A stretch of DNA of 64,000 bases from Hippea alviniae EP5-r (GTDB lineage Bacteria > Campylobacterota_A > Desulfurellia > Desulfurellales > Hippeaceae), in NCBI RefSeq assembly GCF_000420385.1, contig NZ_ATUV01000001.1, positions 992,001-1,056,000 of the forward strand. The letters run 5' to 3'. Positions within the stretch are counted from its first letter, which is position 1; the number at the start of each line of letters is the position of its first letter. The notes under the pieces were generated by a model, which saw nothing but the letters and a program-made list of their open reading frames with translations, was not told the DNA's origin and searched no databases. Shown here one piece after another: positions 16,506 to 61,009 of this stretch. Both the position numbers and the translations under genes were made by a program.

Positions 16506-17948
16506 ATGAAGCTGGATGTAAAAATAAGCATAAGAAAAACATTTTTTGCTGAAACCATATCATCGTCATTTTACCGCTTTTTTATGATGTTTGTTGTTGC
16601 TTTATCACTCATTGCTATCGTTGGATATGACAAGGCAATACCCATATACTTAGGTTCTCCAACCCTTTACAGATACATAGAGATATTCACAATCTTGGTA
16701 TTTGCATTTGATTTATTCATAAGGACATTGATGGTTGTTGAAGAGAGAAAGCAGAAAAACGCAATAAGCATACTAAAATATCTCACTCTTCCATCAACAA
16801 TAGCAGACATAATCGCTCTCATACCTTACACCAGCCTGCCTTACCCCTACAGAATTCTCATAATAATCTCAAGGGTTATAAAAGGCGCCCGTTTTAGCCG
16901 AAGTTTTCAGGGCGTTATGGAAGGCATCAGCGAAAGGGCATTTGAAATATCAACAGTCTTTATAATCTTCACATTTTTAATCATAGCATCGTCAATTATC
17001 ATATTTGTCGCAGAAGGCGGTCATAATCCGAAAATTCATAATCTATTCGACGCAATTTGGTGGAGCATAGTTACATTTACAACCGTCGGATATGGAGACA
17101 TTGTTCCAACAACTCCAACAGGAAGAATAGTTGCATCGTTTTTAATGATTATGGGTATCTCAGGCATAGCTTTACTTACAGGTATTGTCTCCAGCGCATT
17201 TACGGATAAAATTATAAACATGAAACTCAATGTGGAGGAAATCATGGAAAAAAAGATAAAAAAGTTGGAAAATCACTTCATAATCTGCGGATATGGAAGG
17301 GTCGGCAAAGTTGTAGCAAAGGAAATGGAAAGATTTAAAAAACCTTTTGTAATAATAGAAGAAGACTCAGAAAAAGCCCATGAAGCAATAAATGAAGGAT
17401 ATCTAACAATAATAGGCAGCGCAACAGAAGAAGAGATATTAAAAAAAGCACGGGTTGACAAGGCTCAGGGTATAGCTTTAGTAATGGATTCAGACGCAGA
17501 CAACTTATATACACTAATCACGGCAAAAGATGAGAACAGAAACATCTTAGCTGTTGCACGAGCAAACTCAGAAGATTCAGTTAAAAAATTCATAAAATTG
17601 GGCGCAAAAACCATATCACCATATCAATCAAGCGGATACGACATATCCCGAATGCTTATTTCACCCAGAACAGCCGAATTCGTTTCTATAGTAATGCAAT
17701 CAGATAGAACCATTGAGATGGGTGAGTTCTATATAGGCAAAAATTCGCCCTATGCAGGCAAAAAAATTAAAGATACAGATATAAGAAGCAATTACAATAT
17801 CATAATAATTGCCATGATAACAAAAAACAAAGAGACTATTTTTAACCCGAAAGCAAATTGCGTAATAGAAGAAGGCTCAACCCTAATCTGCGTTGGCACA
17901 AAAGAAGATATGGAAAAATTCGAAAGTAAACTCACTAATGAGACTTAA
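16506..17948 (+). CDS. Voltage-gated-like potassium channel with RCK (TrkA-N/TrkA-C) domains
   Basis: The 480-residue protein has about six membrane segments in the first 240 residues, a selectivity filter TFTTVGYGDIVPTT, then an RCK-N Rossmann domain (FIICGYGRVGKVVAKEM) and a TrkA-C domain (FYIGKNSPYAGKKIKDTDI). It is a tetrameric K+ channel gated by a cytoplasmic ligand. The S4 region RILIIISRVIKGARFSR has only a few positive charges, so voltage sensing may be weak. There is no ribosome site at the ATG; the promoter is immediately upstream. Its 3' end overlaps the convergent DUF364 gene by 14 bases. Confidence 0.9.
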   Translation: MKLDVKISIRKTFFAETISSSFYRFFMMFVVALSLIAIVGYDKAIPIYLGSPTLYRYIEIFTILVFAFDLFIRTLMVVEERKQKNAISILKYLTLPSTIADIIALIPYTSLPYPYRILIIISRVIKGARFSRSFQGVMEGISERAFEISTVFIIFTFLIIASSIIIFVAEGGHNPKIHNLFDAIWWSIVTFTTVGYGDIVPTTPTGRIVASFLMIMGISGIALLTGIVSSAFTDKIINMKLNVEEIMEKKIKKLENHFIICGYGRVGKVVAKEMERFKKPFVIIEEDSEKAHEAINEGYLTIIGSATEEEILKKARVDKAQGIALVMDSDADNLYTLITAKDENRNILAVARANSEDSVKKFIKLGAKTISPYQSSGYDISRMLISPRTAEFVSIVMQSDRTIEMGEFYIGKNSPYAGKKIKDTDIRSNYNIIIIAMITKNKETIFNPKANCVIEEGSTLICVGTKEDMEKFESKLTNET

Positions 17949-18693
17949 AGCAGAGCCTGTTTAAATTAAGCAAACTTGCAACGCCTGCTATTGTCGTTCC
18001 ATAAAATATAACGATTCTGTTTTTGTTGTCCATTTTAGATACTCCTATTAACTCATCAATCGTGCCGTTTACTACACTTGAGCCTGTGATTAAAGCAACG
18101 AAGCTCTCTGCAACAACCTTTTTTGAAAATTCCCTGCCGTCTAAAATTTTCACACCATTAAAATCCTTTCCAATATTATCTTCGTCTAAATCGGCTATTT
18201 TTACATTATTAGCTGAGAAAACAGTTATCATGGAAGCCGCAAGGGCAGGCTGAAGTCCAACCATACCTATAGTTGTATTTTTACCCCATCTCCTGTAAAA
18301 TCTCTCTGCCATTTCAGCTGCACATTGAGACGGCTCTTCATCCTTGCAGTGAATAGTTCCCCATGTCATATTCAAATGCCTTAAAACAGCGTTAATAGTG
18401 GCAACAACAACGGCTCTATTTCTGTTCGTTGAAAGTGAAAGCTTTAATACATCTTCAATATAACCTTCAAAATCGCTCGGCTCGTCGGTAAATGCCTGTC
18501 CTTTAGCAGATAAGAAATCAGCTTCTATAAGCACTTCTTTACCTTTAAGAAGAGGAAAATCGTCCCTTTCTGGTTTACCTATGGCTTCTTCTGGCTTTAA
18601 AGGTCTCATTTTAATCTGTATTTTCTTATTCAACAATCCATGATTCTCGACAATTTCCTTAAATTTAAAAAGAGCTTCTTCCAAAATACTCAT
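17935..18693 (-). CDS. DUF4213/DUF364 putative metal-chelating protein under Moco-type riboswitch
   Basis: The 252-residue protein has an N-terminal enolase-like DUF4213 part (KGQAFTDEPSDFEGYIEDVL) and a DUF364 part (TTIGMVGLQPALAASM, VKILDGREFSKKVV, ALITGSSVVNGTIDELI), ending IVIFYGTTIAGVASLLNLNRLCFKSH. DUF364 is described as a putative heavy-metal chelation domain of unknown function. The leader holds a clear molybdenum-cofactor-type riboswitch, so a role in molybdenum or tungsten handling is a good inference. Its last bases overlap the convergent potassium-channel gene. Confidence 0.85.
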   Translation of the reverse strand: MSILEEALFKFKEIVENHGLLNKKIQIKMRPLKPEEAIGKPERDDFPLLKGKEVLIEADFLSAKGQAFTDEPSDFEGYIEDVLKLSLSTNRNRAVVVATINAVLRHLNMTWGTIHCKDEEPSQCAAEMAERFYRRWGKNTTIGMVGLQPALAASMITVFSANNVKIADLDEDNIGKDFNGVKILDGREFSKKVVAESFVALITGSSVVNGTIDELIGVSKMDNKNRIVIFYGTTIAGVASLLNLNRLCFKSH

Positions 18694-18744
18694 TTTTTGA
18701 TTCTCCCTTCTATAGTTAACAAGATTTCTAAATTCAAGGGCACT

Positions 18745-18838
18745 CTCCTTTCCAAAAAATCGGGAGGCATAAGCGTTTCCACTTATACCCTATCGGCCTT
18801 TAGCCATAGCTTCTTGCCTTAGGCTAAAAGGCTCGGAG
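18745..18838 (-). promoter_or_regulatory. Moco (molybdenum/tungsten cofactor) riboswitch
   Basis: Read on the minus strand from 18838, the RNA begins CTCCGAGCC, forms a stem CCTTTTAGCC/GGCTAAAGG, has a further stem GTATAAG/CTTATGC with loop TGGAAACG, then GCCTCCCGA and closes with TTTGGAAAGGAG. CTCCGAGCC, GCCTCCCG and GGAAAGGAG are the conserved elements of the Moco motif, and CTCC pairs with GGAG to close it. It sits about 50 nt before the DUF364 start. The extra stem argues for the Moco rather than the shortened Tuco subclass. Confidence 0.8.
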
Positions 18839-18957
18839 ATACCTATACTATACTGTTATACTTCCAATAATTCAAGGCTAATTTTAATTTATCAACCTGC
18901 TTGACTTAAAAAATATTTTATCCTAAAAACAAAAAAAGAAAAAGAAGGAGGTGCAAA

Positions 18958-59152: not shown

Positions 59153-59181
59153 TTGATTTTTTCTTTTCTCTTTTATATTAT
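59153..59181 (+). promoter_or_regulatory. Promoter of the fluoride-riboswitch/dynamin unit
   Basis: TTGATT (59153-59158), 17 nt, TATTAT (59176-59181). The predicted start (about 59188) is just before the aptamer. Confidence 0.65.
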
Positions 59182-59190
59182 CAGCACTAA

Positions 59191-59262
59191 AAGGCTATGA
59201 GGTCAGCCTTAAAAGCCCACCTTCGGGATGATGACCTCTACCTAAAACTAAGTGGTAGGGGG
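59191..59262 (+). promoter_or_regulatory. Fluoride riboswitch (crcB motif) with translational expression platform
   Basis: Stem AAGGCT/AGCCTT (59191-59196 with 59205-59210) carries the loop ATGAGGTC, whose GAGGTC pairs with GACCTC at 59233-59238 to form the pseudoknot. Between them lie AAAA and a second stem GCCC..GGG, then GATGATGACCTCTAC. ATGAGG, TGATG and CCTCTAC are the conserved elements of fluoride aptamers. CCTCTACC (59235-59242) can alternatively pair with GGTAGGGG (59254-59261), which contains the ribosome site. Fluoride should thus free the ribosome site and switch the gene on. Confidence 0.85.
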
Positions 59263-59269
59263 TGTATTC

Positions 59270-61009
59270 ATGCAGAATATAAAAGATATACTCAAAAAAG
59301 AGATAAATTCTCTTAAAGAGATAACACCTAAAAGCACTGCTTTGGATAAAGCTTTAAATAAGCTTGAGTCTGAACAGTTCAATCTTGTTGTTGTAGGCCA
59401 GTTTAAAAGAGGTAAATCAACTTTTATAAACGCTCTACTCGGTGATAATATCGTTCCATCTTCTATTTTACCTTTAACTTCAATTGTAACGATAATCTCA
59501 TATTCTCCAACAAAAAAAGCCAAAGTTAAATTTTTAGACAACAGCGAAAGGGAAATAGATATAAAAGAGATAGAGAAGTATGTTACAGAGAAGCACAACC
59601 CAAAAAACAAGCTCAATGTTAAAGAAGTATATGTATTTCACCCGTCGGAGTATTTGAAAAAAGGCGTAAGGATAATAGACACGCCGGGTATAGGAAGCGT
59701 GTTTAAACATAATACCGATGTTGCCTTGAGTTTTTTGCCCTATTGCGATGCTGCTGTATTTGTTATGAGTCCAGACCCACCATTAACTGAAGCAGAGATT
59801 GAATTCTTAAAAAATGTAAGGGTTTACACTGAAAAGTTTTTCTTTGTCTTGAATAAGATAGACATAGTTTCCGAAGACGAACTCGACGAAGTAGTTGAAT
59901 TCAACAAATCTTTATTAAAAGAGCGCACACAAAACGATAATATAAGAATTTACCCTATATCTGCCAAAACCGCATTAAAGGCAAAAATCAACAAAGACTC
60001 TCACCTTTTGAAGCAGTCAAAAATAAAGGCGATTGAAGAGTCATTGGAAGAGTTTATAGCAAAAGAGAGAATGAATATAATAGCTATCAGCGTAATAAAT
60101 GCTCTTCTAAGACACATAAACAACGAGCTTACAGCCTATAAGCTTCAAAAAGAGACTCAAAAGCTCTCCATTGAAGAGTTAACAGAGAAGGTTAAAAAGT
60201 TTGATGGGTTCATAAAAACAGTAAAAGATGAAGCAGAAGAGTATGAGTATATTTTAGATAAACGAATAGACAAAATCTATAAAGAGTTAGACGAAGAGAT
60301 AGAGAAACTAAAGGAAGCTCAACTACCTCCACTTATAGAGAAAATGCAAAAACACTTTGAAGAAAAATCAAAAGAAAAACTAAGCACTGAAGAGTTTGAA
60401 AACTATATGACGCAAAAAATGAATGGATACATCATGGAGATATTCTCAGAATGGAGAAAAGAGCAGTCAGATATAATCTCGGATAAGGTTGAAAGAATTT
60501 ACGAAGATTTAGCAAAGAGAATAAATGCAAAAATAGAAGAGATTATAAATACGGCATCTTCCATCTTTGATGTTAAATTAAACGCCTATGTTGATACGGA
60601 AAAATTAACACAGAAAAGCGATTTTTACTTTATGCTGGAAGACCAGATGGGCATTTTAAACATATTTGCAACAACTTTCAGAACAAAATTGCCGTTTTTT
60701 ATAGGCAAAAAGATAGCTCAGAAACATATCAAAAATACAACCATTGAGTTGTTCGATAGGCATTGCGGAAGGGTTAGATACGATTTAACAAAAAGGGTTA
60801 GAGAAACAACATTTAAGTTCAAAGACCAGCTCAAAGACAAACTTGACTTAACAATAGAAGCTATACAGGATGCTCTCAACAAAGCCATAAAGCTCAAACA
60901 GGAAAACGAAAAACAGGTTGAAGATAAACTAAAAGAGATAGAGAAAAACACAAAGCTTTTGCTCGAAAAGAAACGGGAGCTTGAAGAACTGAAGGCAAAG
61001 ATAGGATAA
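59270..61009 (+). CDS. Dynamin-family GTPase controlled by a fluoride riboswitch
   Basis: The 579-residue protein has P-loop GQFKRGKST (residues 43-51), a switch region PLTSIVTII, G3 DTPGIGSV (near residue 137) and G4 LNKIDIVS (near 195). A long helical/coiled-coil stalk follows and a short hydrophobic stretch (GILNIFATTFRTKLPFFIGKK, near residues 460-480) that could be a membrane paddle. It ends in a coiled coil KQENEKQVEDKLKEIEKNTK. Bacterial dynamin-like proteins remodel or repair membranes. I chose the ATG after TAGGGGGTGTATTC; an upstream GTG would bury the ribosome site in the coding region. It is a single-gene unit. Confidence 0.9.
   Translation: MQNIKDILKKEINSLKEITPKSTALDKALNKLESEQFNLVVVGQFKRGKSTFINALLGDNIVPSSILPLTSIVTIISYSPTKKAKVKFLDNSEREIDIKEIEKYVTEKHNPKNKLNVKEVYVFHPSEYLKKGVRIIDTPGIGSVFKHNTDVALSFLPYCDAAVFVMSPDPPLTEAEIEFLKNVRVYTEKFFFVLNKIDIVSEDELDEVVEFNKSLLKERTQNDNIRIYPISAKTALKAKINKDSHLLKQSKIKAIEESLEEFIAKERMNIIAISVINALLRHINNELTAYKLQKETQKLSIEELTEKVKKFDGFIKTVKDEAEEYEYILDKRIDKIYKELDEEIEKLKEAQLPPLIEKMQKHFEEKSKEKLSTEEFENYMTQKMNGYIMEIFSEWRKEQSDIISDKVERIYEDLAKRINAKIEEIINTASSIFDVKLNAYVDTEKLTQKSDFYFMLEDQMGILNIFATTFRTKLPFFIGKKIAQKHIKNTTIELFDRHCGRVRYDLTKRVRETTFKFKDQLKDKLDLTIEAIQDALNKAIKLKQENEKQVEDKLKEIEKNTKLLLEKKRELEELKAKIG

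Follow-up and report, generated by a model that had tools for sequence, protein, structure and literature searches.

A fluoride riboswitch predicted to control the translation of a dynamin-like GTPase in Hippea alviniae, and recurrence of the pairing in other phyla

The window analysed here, a stretch of 64,000 nucleotides from Hippea alviniae EP5-r, carries a fluoride riboswitch directly upstream of a gene for a dynamin-like GTPase (Table 1). Taken as a whole, it is highly probable that this riboswitch, in response to fluoride, turns on the translation of a soluble dynamin-like GTPase of a fluoride-tolerance regulon, a reading that leaves aside any role at the membrane. Fluoride control of the dynamin is very well supported by sequence comparison; the pairing recurs in distantly related bacteria, and dynamin-like proteins seem to have been missed so far as a component of bacterial fluoride tolerance.

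Table 1. Features of the riboswitch-dynamin locus, in window coordinates.
Feature	Position	Strand	Basis
Promoter-like site TTGATT-17-TATTAT	59153..59181	+	Consensus match 9/12; similar boxes in 8 other genomes of the genus
Fluoride (crcB-type) riboswitch aptamer	59184..59247	+	RF01734, 37.1 bits, cut-off 34; pseudoknot covariation
Predicted expression platform: CCUCUACC (3' strand of the aptamer) can pair with GGUAGGGG (ribosome site) as the alternative to the pseudoknot	59234..59260	+	Duplex -14.5 kcal/mol
Putative ribosome-binding segment GGTAGGGGG	59252..59260	+	Sequence; position fits ATG 59270 and lines up with the relatives
Dynamin-like GTPase, 579 aa	59270..61009	+	Dynamin_N 1.5e-30; G motifs intact; fold like IniA/BDLP

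An earlier note, made from the letters of the window, had described a complete crcB-type aptamer and had proposed a covariance-model search as a check, and the Rfam fluoride riboswitch model (RF01734) bears the description out. The match (E 1.2e-6 for the whole window) covers the model completely, from position 1 to 64, its score exceeds the gathering score, and all named parts were found, namely P1 (AAGGCU/AGCCUU), the loop AUGAGGUC, its pseudoknot partner GACCUC, and GAUGAUGACCUCUAC. Across 25 aligned aptamers the pseudoknot between loop and partner covaries, with both sides changed and pairing kept in three of its six pairs; RNAalifold, run on a MAFFT alignment of diverse aptamers, returned the pseudoknot pairs only, because the second hairpin is misaligned in that alignment. 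We regard it as practically certain that the aptamer is real, and infer from the known biology of the riboswitch class that it binds fluoride.

The promoter-like site that the earlier note had placed before the aptamer exists, and would start a transcript just upstream of it. As a consensus match it is weak alone, being one of 10 such matches against 6.7 in shuffled sequences; a TTGA-type box and a TA-rich -10 box stand at the same place in the eight relatives listed in Table 1. The start codon is ATG 59270; the GTG at 59252 was set aside, since it shares nucleotides with the ribosome site. Behind the dynamin gene, a tRNA gene and a NIF3 gene run in the opposite direction, and a two-component system begins about 670 nt after it; the dynamin therefore appears to be transcribed alone. 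Elsewhere in the window, a molybdenum/tungsten cofactor riboswitch (18729-18850, minus strand, 75.7 bits) lies directly upstream of a gene (17935-18693, minus strand) whose product has a DUF364 domain, of putative function in heavy-metal chelation.

Between the end of the aptamer and the ATG there are 22 nt, into which no terminator fits, and the switch is therefore predicted to be translational. Here, CCUCUACC and GGUAGGGG can form an 8-bp helix over the ribosome site; 1.2% of shuffled sequences gave a duplex as good, and the helix is part of the leader's minimum-energy fold. Without fluoride, CCUCUACC would pair with the ribosome site and block translation, while fluoride with Mg2+ would stabilise the pseudoknot, so that CCUCUACC stays within the aptamer, leaving the ribosome site open for synthesis of the GTPase. 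The pairing over the ribosome site had been proposed before, as a simple translational ON switch, and it stands up to comparison: each of the 13 leaders of the class allows the aptamer's 3' strand to base-pair with its own ribosome site (-7.8 to -16.1 kcal/mol). When the leaders are folded without the pseudoknot, nearly all show this helix in the minimum-energy structure, with G004 as the exception. The helix sequence differs by clade, with CCUCUACC x GGUAGGGG in the window, CCUCUAU x AUAGGGG in G004 and AACUCCU x AGGAGUU in a third family. Some complementarity to the ribosome site is expected, because the pairing strand of the aptamer is pyrimidine-rich; the observed pairing energy was matched by 0-2% of shuffles for eight leaders and by 4-18% for five, and the shuffle test exceeded 0.05 in four of the 13.

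For other phyla, the partner segment of this strand has a T run behind it in about 27 of 46 leaders (for example ACTCCTAC...GTAGGAGTTTTTT), a count that takes in two leaders of the window's genus which are really ribosome sites followed by TTTT; in some leaders of these phyla a further hairpin relays the choice. There the strand would mostly serve as the 5' half of an intrinsic terminator and the switch would follow the same logic at the level of transcription, and the platform thus appears to be the ribosome site in the window's class and mostly a terminator elsewhere. By sequence and folding, the platform is exclusive with the aptamer and would be ON with ligand. Both types predict expression with fluoride, a direction taken from the biology of the riboswitch class and in our view highly likely to be right. 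In aptamer, pseudoknot and ON logic the window's riboswitch resembles the described fluoride riboswitch (crcB motif, RF01734), for which terminators overlapping the aptamer have been described (PMC2864571); it differs from the described class in its target, a dynamin-like GTPase, and in its translational platform.

The arrangement is conserved among near relatives, where the earlier note had suggested looking for aptamers before orthologous dynamin genes. In all eight other genomes of the genus (nine of nine with the window's), each of which has two fluoride aptamers, the dynamin orthologue is closely preceded by an aptamer, the proteins being 72-81% identical and two of the aptamers scoring slightly below the cut-off, at 32.8 and 33.5 bits. 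An aptamer also precedes the dynamin in G018, from another family (protein 44% identical), and in G020, G022 and G024, from the third family (31-38% identical), with quite different aptamer and leader sequences. The link is not obligatory, because two members of the window's own family (G010, G014) and a Syntrophobacteraceae clade keep the dynamin without an aptamer.

To go beyond this class, a genome collection was scanned with the dynamin protein alignment alone, and the best 80 homologues were retained, 78 of them with usable upstream sequence. An aptamer (Rfam) was found on the same strand within 600 nt upstream, counted from the homologous stretch, in 48 of these 78 best homologues, including one (L071) that scores 33.5 bits, slightly below the cut-off; about 0.02 would be expected by chance, an estimate of ours from 1-6 aptamers per genome of 1-8 Mb. 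The enrichment is not circular, because the homologues were picked on protein alone. For eight further homologues the aptamer lies farther upstream, in several cases in front of a run of genes to which the dynamin belongs. By record title, which may be wrong for metagenome bins, the linked cases belong to Campylobacterota, Thermodesulfobacteriota, Nitrospirota, Bacillota, Planctomycetota and an Acidobacteriota-type bin. Among 99 related and random genomes there were about 27 strong dynamins, 13 of them with an aptamer directly upstream (nine from the window's genus) and that of G036 connected to its aptamer via a DUF6062 gene; a riboswitch sample from the phylum of G036, drawn without regard to dynamins, yielded three further pairs of aptamer and dynamin (L182-L184). 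In a tree of the proteins, the aptamer label needs 12 changes, against 23.9 after shuffling, and the link is therefore, by this reconstruction, clustered and yet was gained or lost repeatedly.

These comparisons bear on two ways in which the locus might mislead. A chance neighbourhood, in which the riboswitch would act on something other than the dynamin, is extremely improbable, given the 48 linked homologues, the conservation across the genus, the short distance from aptamer to start codon and the opposite direction of the tRNA and NIF3 genes behind; we are very confident that the aptamer controls the dynamin gene. It is also very improbable, if less remotely so, that the aptamer is a drifted copy in this genus which has lost fluoride binding or responds to another ligand. 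Its modest score of 37.1 bits, the two orthologous aptamers that score lower still, and the second hairpin, in which CCC/GGG is kept and the closing position is G...A instead of the usual G-C, would be in keeping with drift; against it, there are compensatory changes, and the pseudoknot, P1 and the conserved AUG/GAUGAUGA residues all persist; the same G...A, common to the whole genus, occurs in some Syntrophobacterales (L074, L076, L104), whose aptamers reach 48-53 bits and retain a terminator.

The genes found repeatedly beside the dynamins encode CrcB, DUF190, enolase, Na+/H+ exchangers, a membrane H+-pyrophosphatase and a universal stress protein (UspA), as well as MFS transporters, DUF6062 proteins and a MutS domain V protein. 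In four loci (L095, L106, L110, L126) the order is aptamer, exchanger, Usp, aptamer, dynamin, with one gene more in L095 and L110. Several of these neighbours are published targets of fluoride riboswitches, which include Fluc, CLC-F, Na+/H+ antiporters, pyrophosphatase, enolase, formate hydrogenlyase and mutS (sources include PMC2864571 and PMC11139923). Several lineages thus show the dynamin next to a fluoride riboswitch or to genes already known from fluoride biology. The earlier note had proposed a dynamin-like protein as part of the fluoride response; the widespread aptamer link and the fluoride genes nearby support this, and we consider it highly probable that the dynamin belongs to fluoride tolerance.

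Some further genes were observed after fluoride riboswitches. DUF6062-type genes lie downstream of them in L015, L134 and L188, in the first two between aptamer and dynamin. MFS transporters related to those beside dynamins directly follow fluoride riboswitches in L027, L187 and L194. In L087 (2309-4912), a gene with a weak match to the prenyltransferase alpha-alpha toroid stands between the fluoride aptamer and the dynamin, and a gene after the fluoride aptamer of L023, judged by eye, resembles it.

The protein retains the GTPase motifs G1 to G5, including the P-loop, the switch Thr, DTPG and NKxD. An AlphaFold2 model (pLDDT 80.5, pTM 0.58) consists of a GTPase head and long helices (neck and trunk), with the tip segment 441-472 modelled at low confidence. 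Its best matches among solved structures (Foldseek) are IniA and BDLP, with TM-scores near 0.5 and high rmsd, so that the model indicates the dynamin-like family clearly and the conformation less so; the sequence matches, to BDLP, the Campylobacter dynamin pair and IniA, agree with the fold matches. The closest solved fold is that of IniA of mycobacteria (Foldseek 4.6e-20, about 16-18% identity), a bacterial dynamin-like protein that is induced by stress from envelope drugs (isoniazid) and for which we know of no riboswitch. BDLP1 of Nostoc (2j68) is the best sequence match in the PDB (1.2e-25) and shares the BDLP-type GTPase and the helical trunk with a tip; unlike BDLP1, the window protein has no clear membrane-spanning paddle in a hydropathy scan and does have a link to fluoride. 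DynA of Bacillus subtilis, a bacterial dynamin of membrane surveillance (PMC8844932), has a similar GTPase domain and consists of two fused dynamin units (about 1190 aa), whereas the window protein is a single unit. LeoA/LeoBC show weak profile similarity across most of the length; their partner genes and context are absent here and the fold match is weaker (4aur). Membership in an anti-phage system, raised by these profile hits, was rejected in view of the fluoride neighbours and with no Leo partners seen, and a phage origin of the dynamin was rejected in view of no match in PHROGs.

The genome of the window (1.75 Mb) contains two fluoride aptamers over the cut-off. The second (46.2 bits; L154, G000 contig 2, from about 6542 down to 4 on the minus strand) precedes a membrane complex operon whose first gene belongs to the NADH dehydrogenase subunit 1 family and which contains antiporter-like and 49-kDa-like subunits. 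Such complex I-like/hydrogenase-type operons are a recurrent riboswitch target across the family and the order, and a formate hydrogenlyase-type target has already been reported (PMC2864571, PMC11139923). CrcB (PF02537) was not found in 23 genomes of the class, the window's among them, by a search that was positive in 10 of 14 controls. The window's genome has five CLC genes, four with GREGP in a motif scan and the fifth with GREGP in its sequence; the GREGT/GNNLI motif, with a riboswitch-linked CLC as yardstick, was found in none of the five, which is a motif test and not a transport assay. The class would thus apparently have fluoride sensing and no recognised exporter, CLC-F having been judged by motif in the window's genome only.

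For what the GTPase does under fluoride, we favour an action on the cell membrane, as for IniA and DynA under envelope stress, by which the membrane would stay sealed and energised even as protons and fluoride cross it in the form of HF. This analogy gives a membrane-protective role, as opposed to dosage compensation, about an even chance. Dosage compensation is the main rival, less probable and still a serious one: the cell would make more of a GTPase that fluoride poisons, so that the dynamin would do its ordinary job and not itself be protective. Metal fluorides trap GTPases, and fluoride with Mg2+ or Al3+ would act on dynamin-like GTPases as a mimic of the gamma-phosphate, with enolase thought to be a similar case. 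Enolase and pyrophosphatase, known to be fluoride-sensitive, share the regulon and the neighbourhood, and making more enzyme under fluoride is the accepted reading for the enolase gene (PMC11139923). On the other side, many bacteria have no dynamin gene, so that it is hardly a core function needing upkeep, and relatives retain the dynamin without the switch. Nor, to our knowledge, are other GTPases of these cells (EF-Tu, Era, Der) riboswitch targets. It is a good deal less probable again that the dynamin serves other members of the regulon, for instance by placing or clustering fluoride exporters, antiporters and proton pumps in the membrane. In other phyla it does adjoin CrcB, Na+/H+ exchangers and H+-pyrophosphatase, but the partners differ between loci, and in the window's class CrcB is missing and the dynamin gene stands alone.

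That there had been no described link of this kind, as the earlier note supposed, agrees with a literature search in which no paper connecting fluoride riboswitches or fluoride resistance with dynamins was found, supplementary gene tables and the 2012 discovery paper lying outside its scope. Bacterial dynamins are widespread and few have a known trigger or purpose; here the riboswitch names the trigger, fluoride, by which their purpose becomes directly testable. The link would add membrane remodelling to export and metabolism as a means of fluoride tolerance, and it draws attention to bacteria in which fluoride is sensed and no exporter is recognised. Tentatively, and with rather less confidence than in the membrane role itself, this widespread and previously unnamed branch of bacterial dynamins may be a dedicated fluoride-tolerance factor which, in Desulfurella-type bacteria (without CrcB and apparently without CLC-F), would replace the exporter, together with a riboswitch-controlled complex I-like/hydrogenase-type complex, by protecting the membrane and its energisation.
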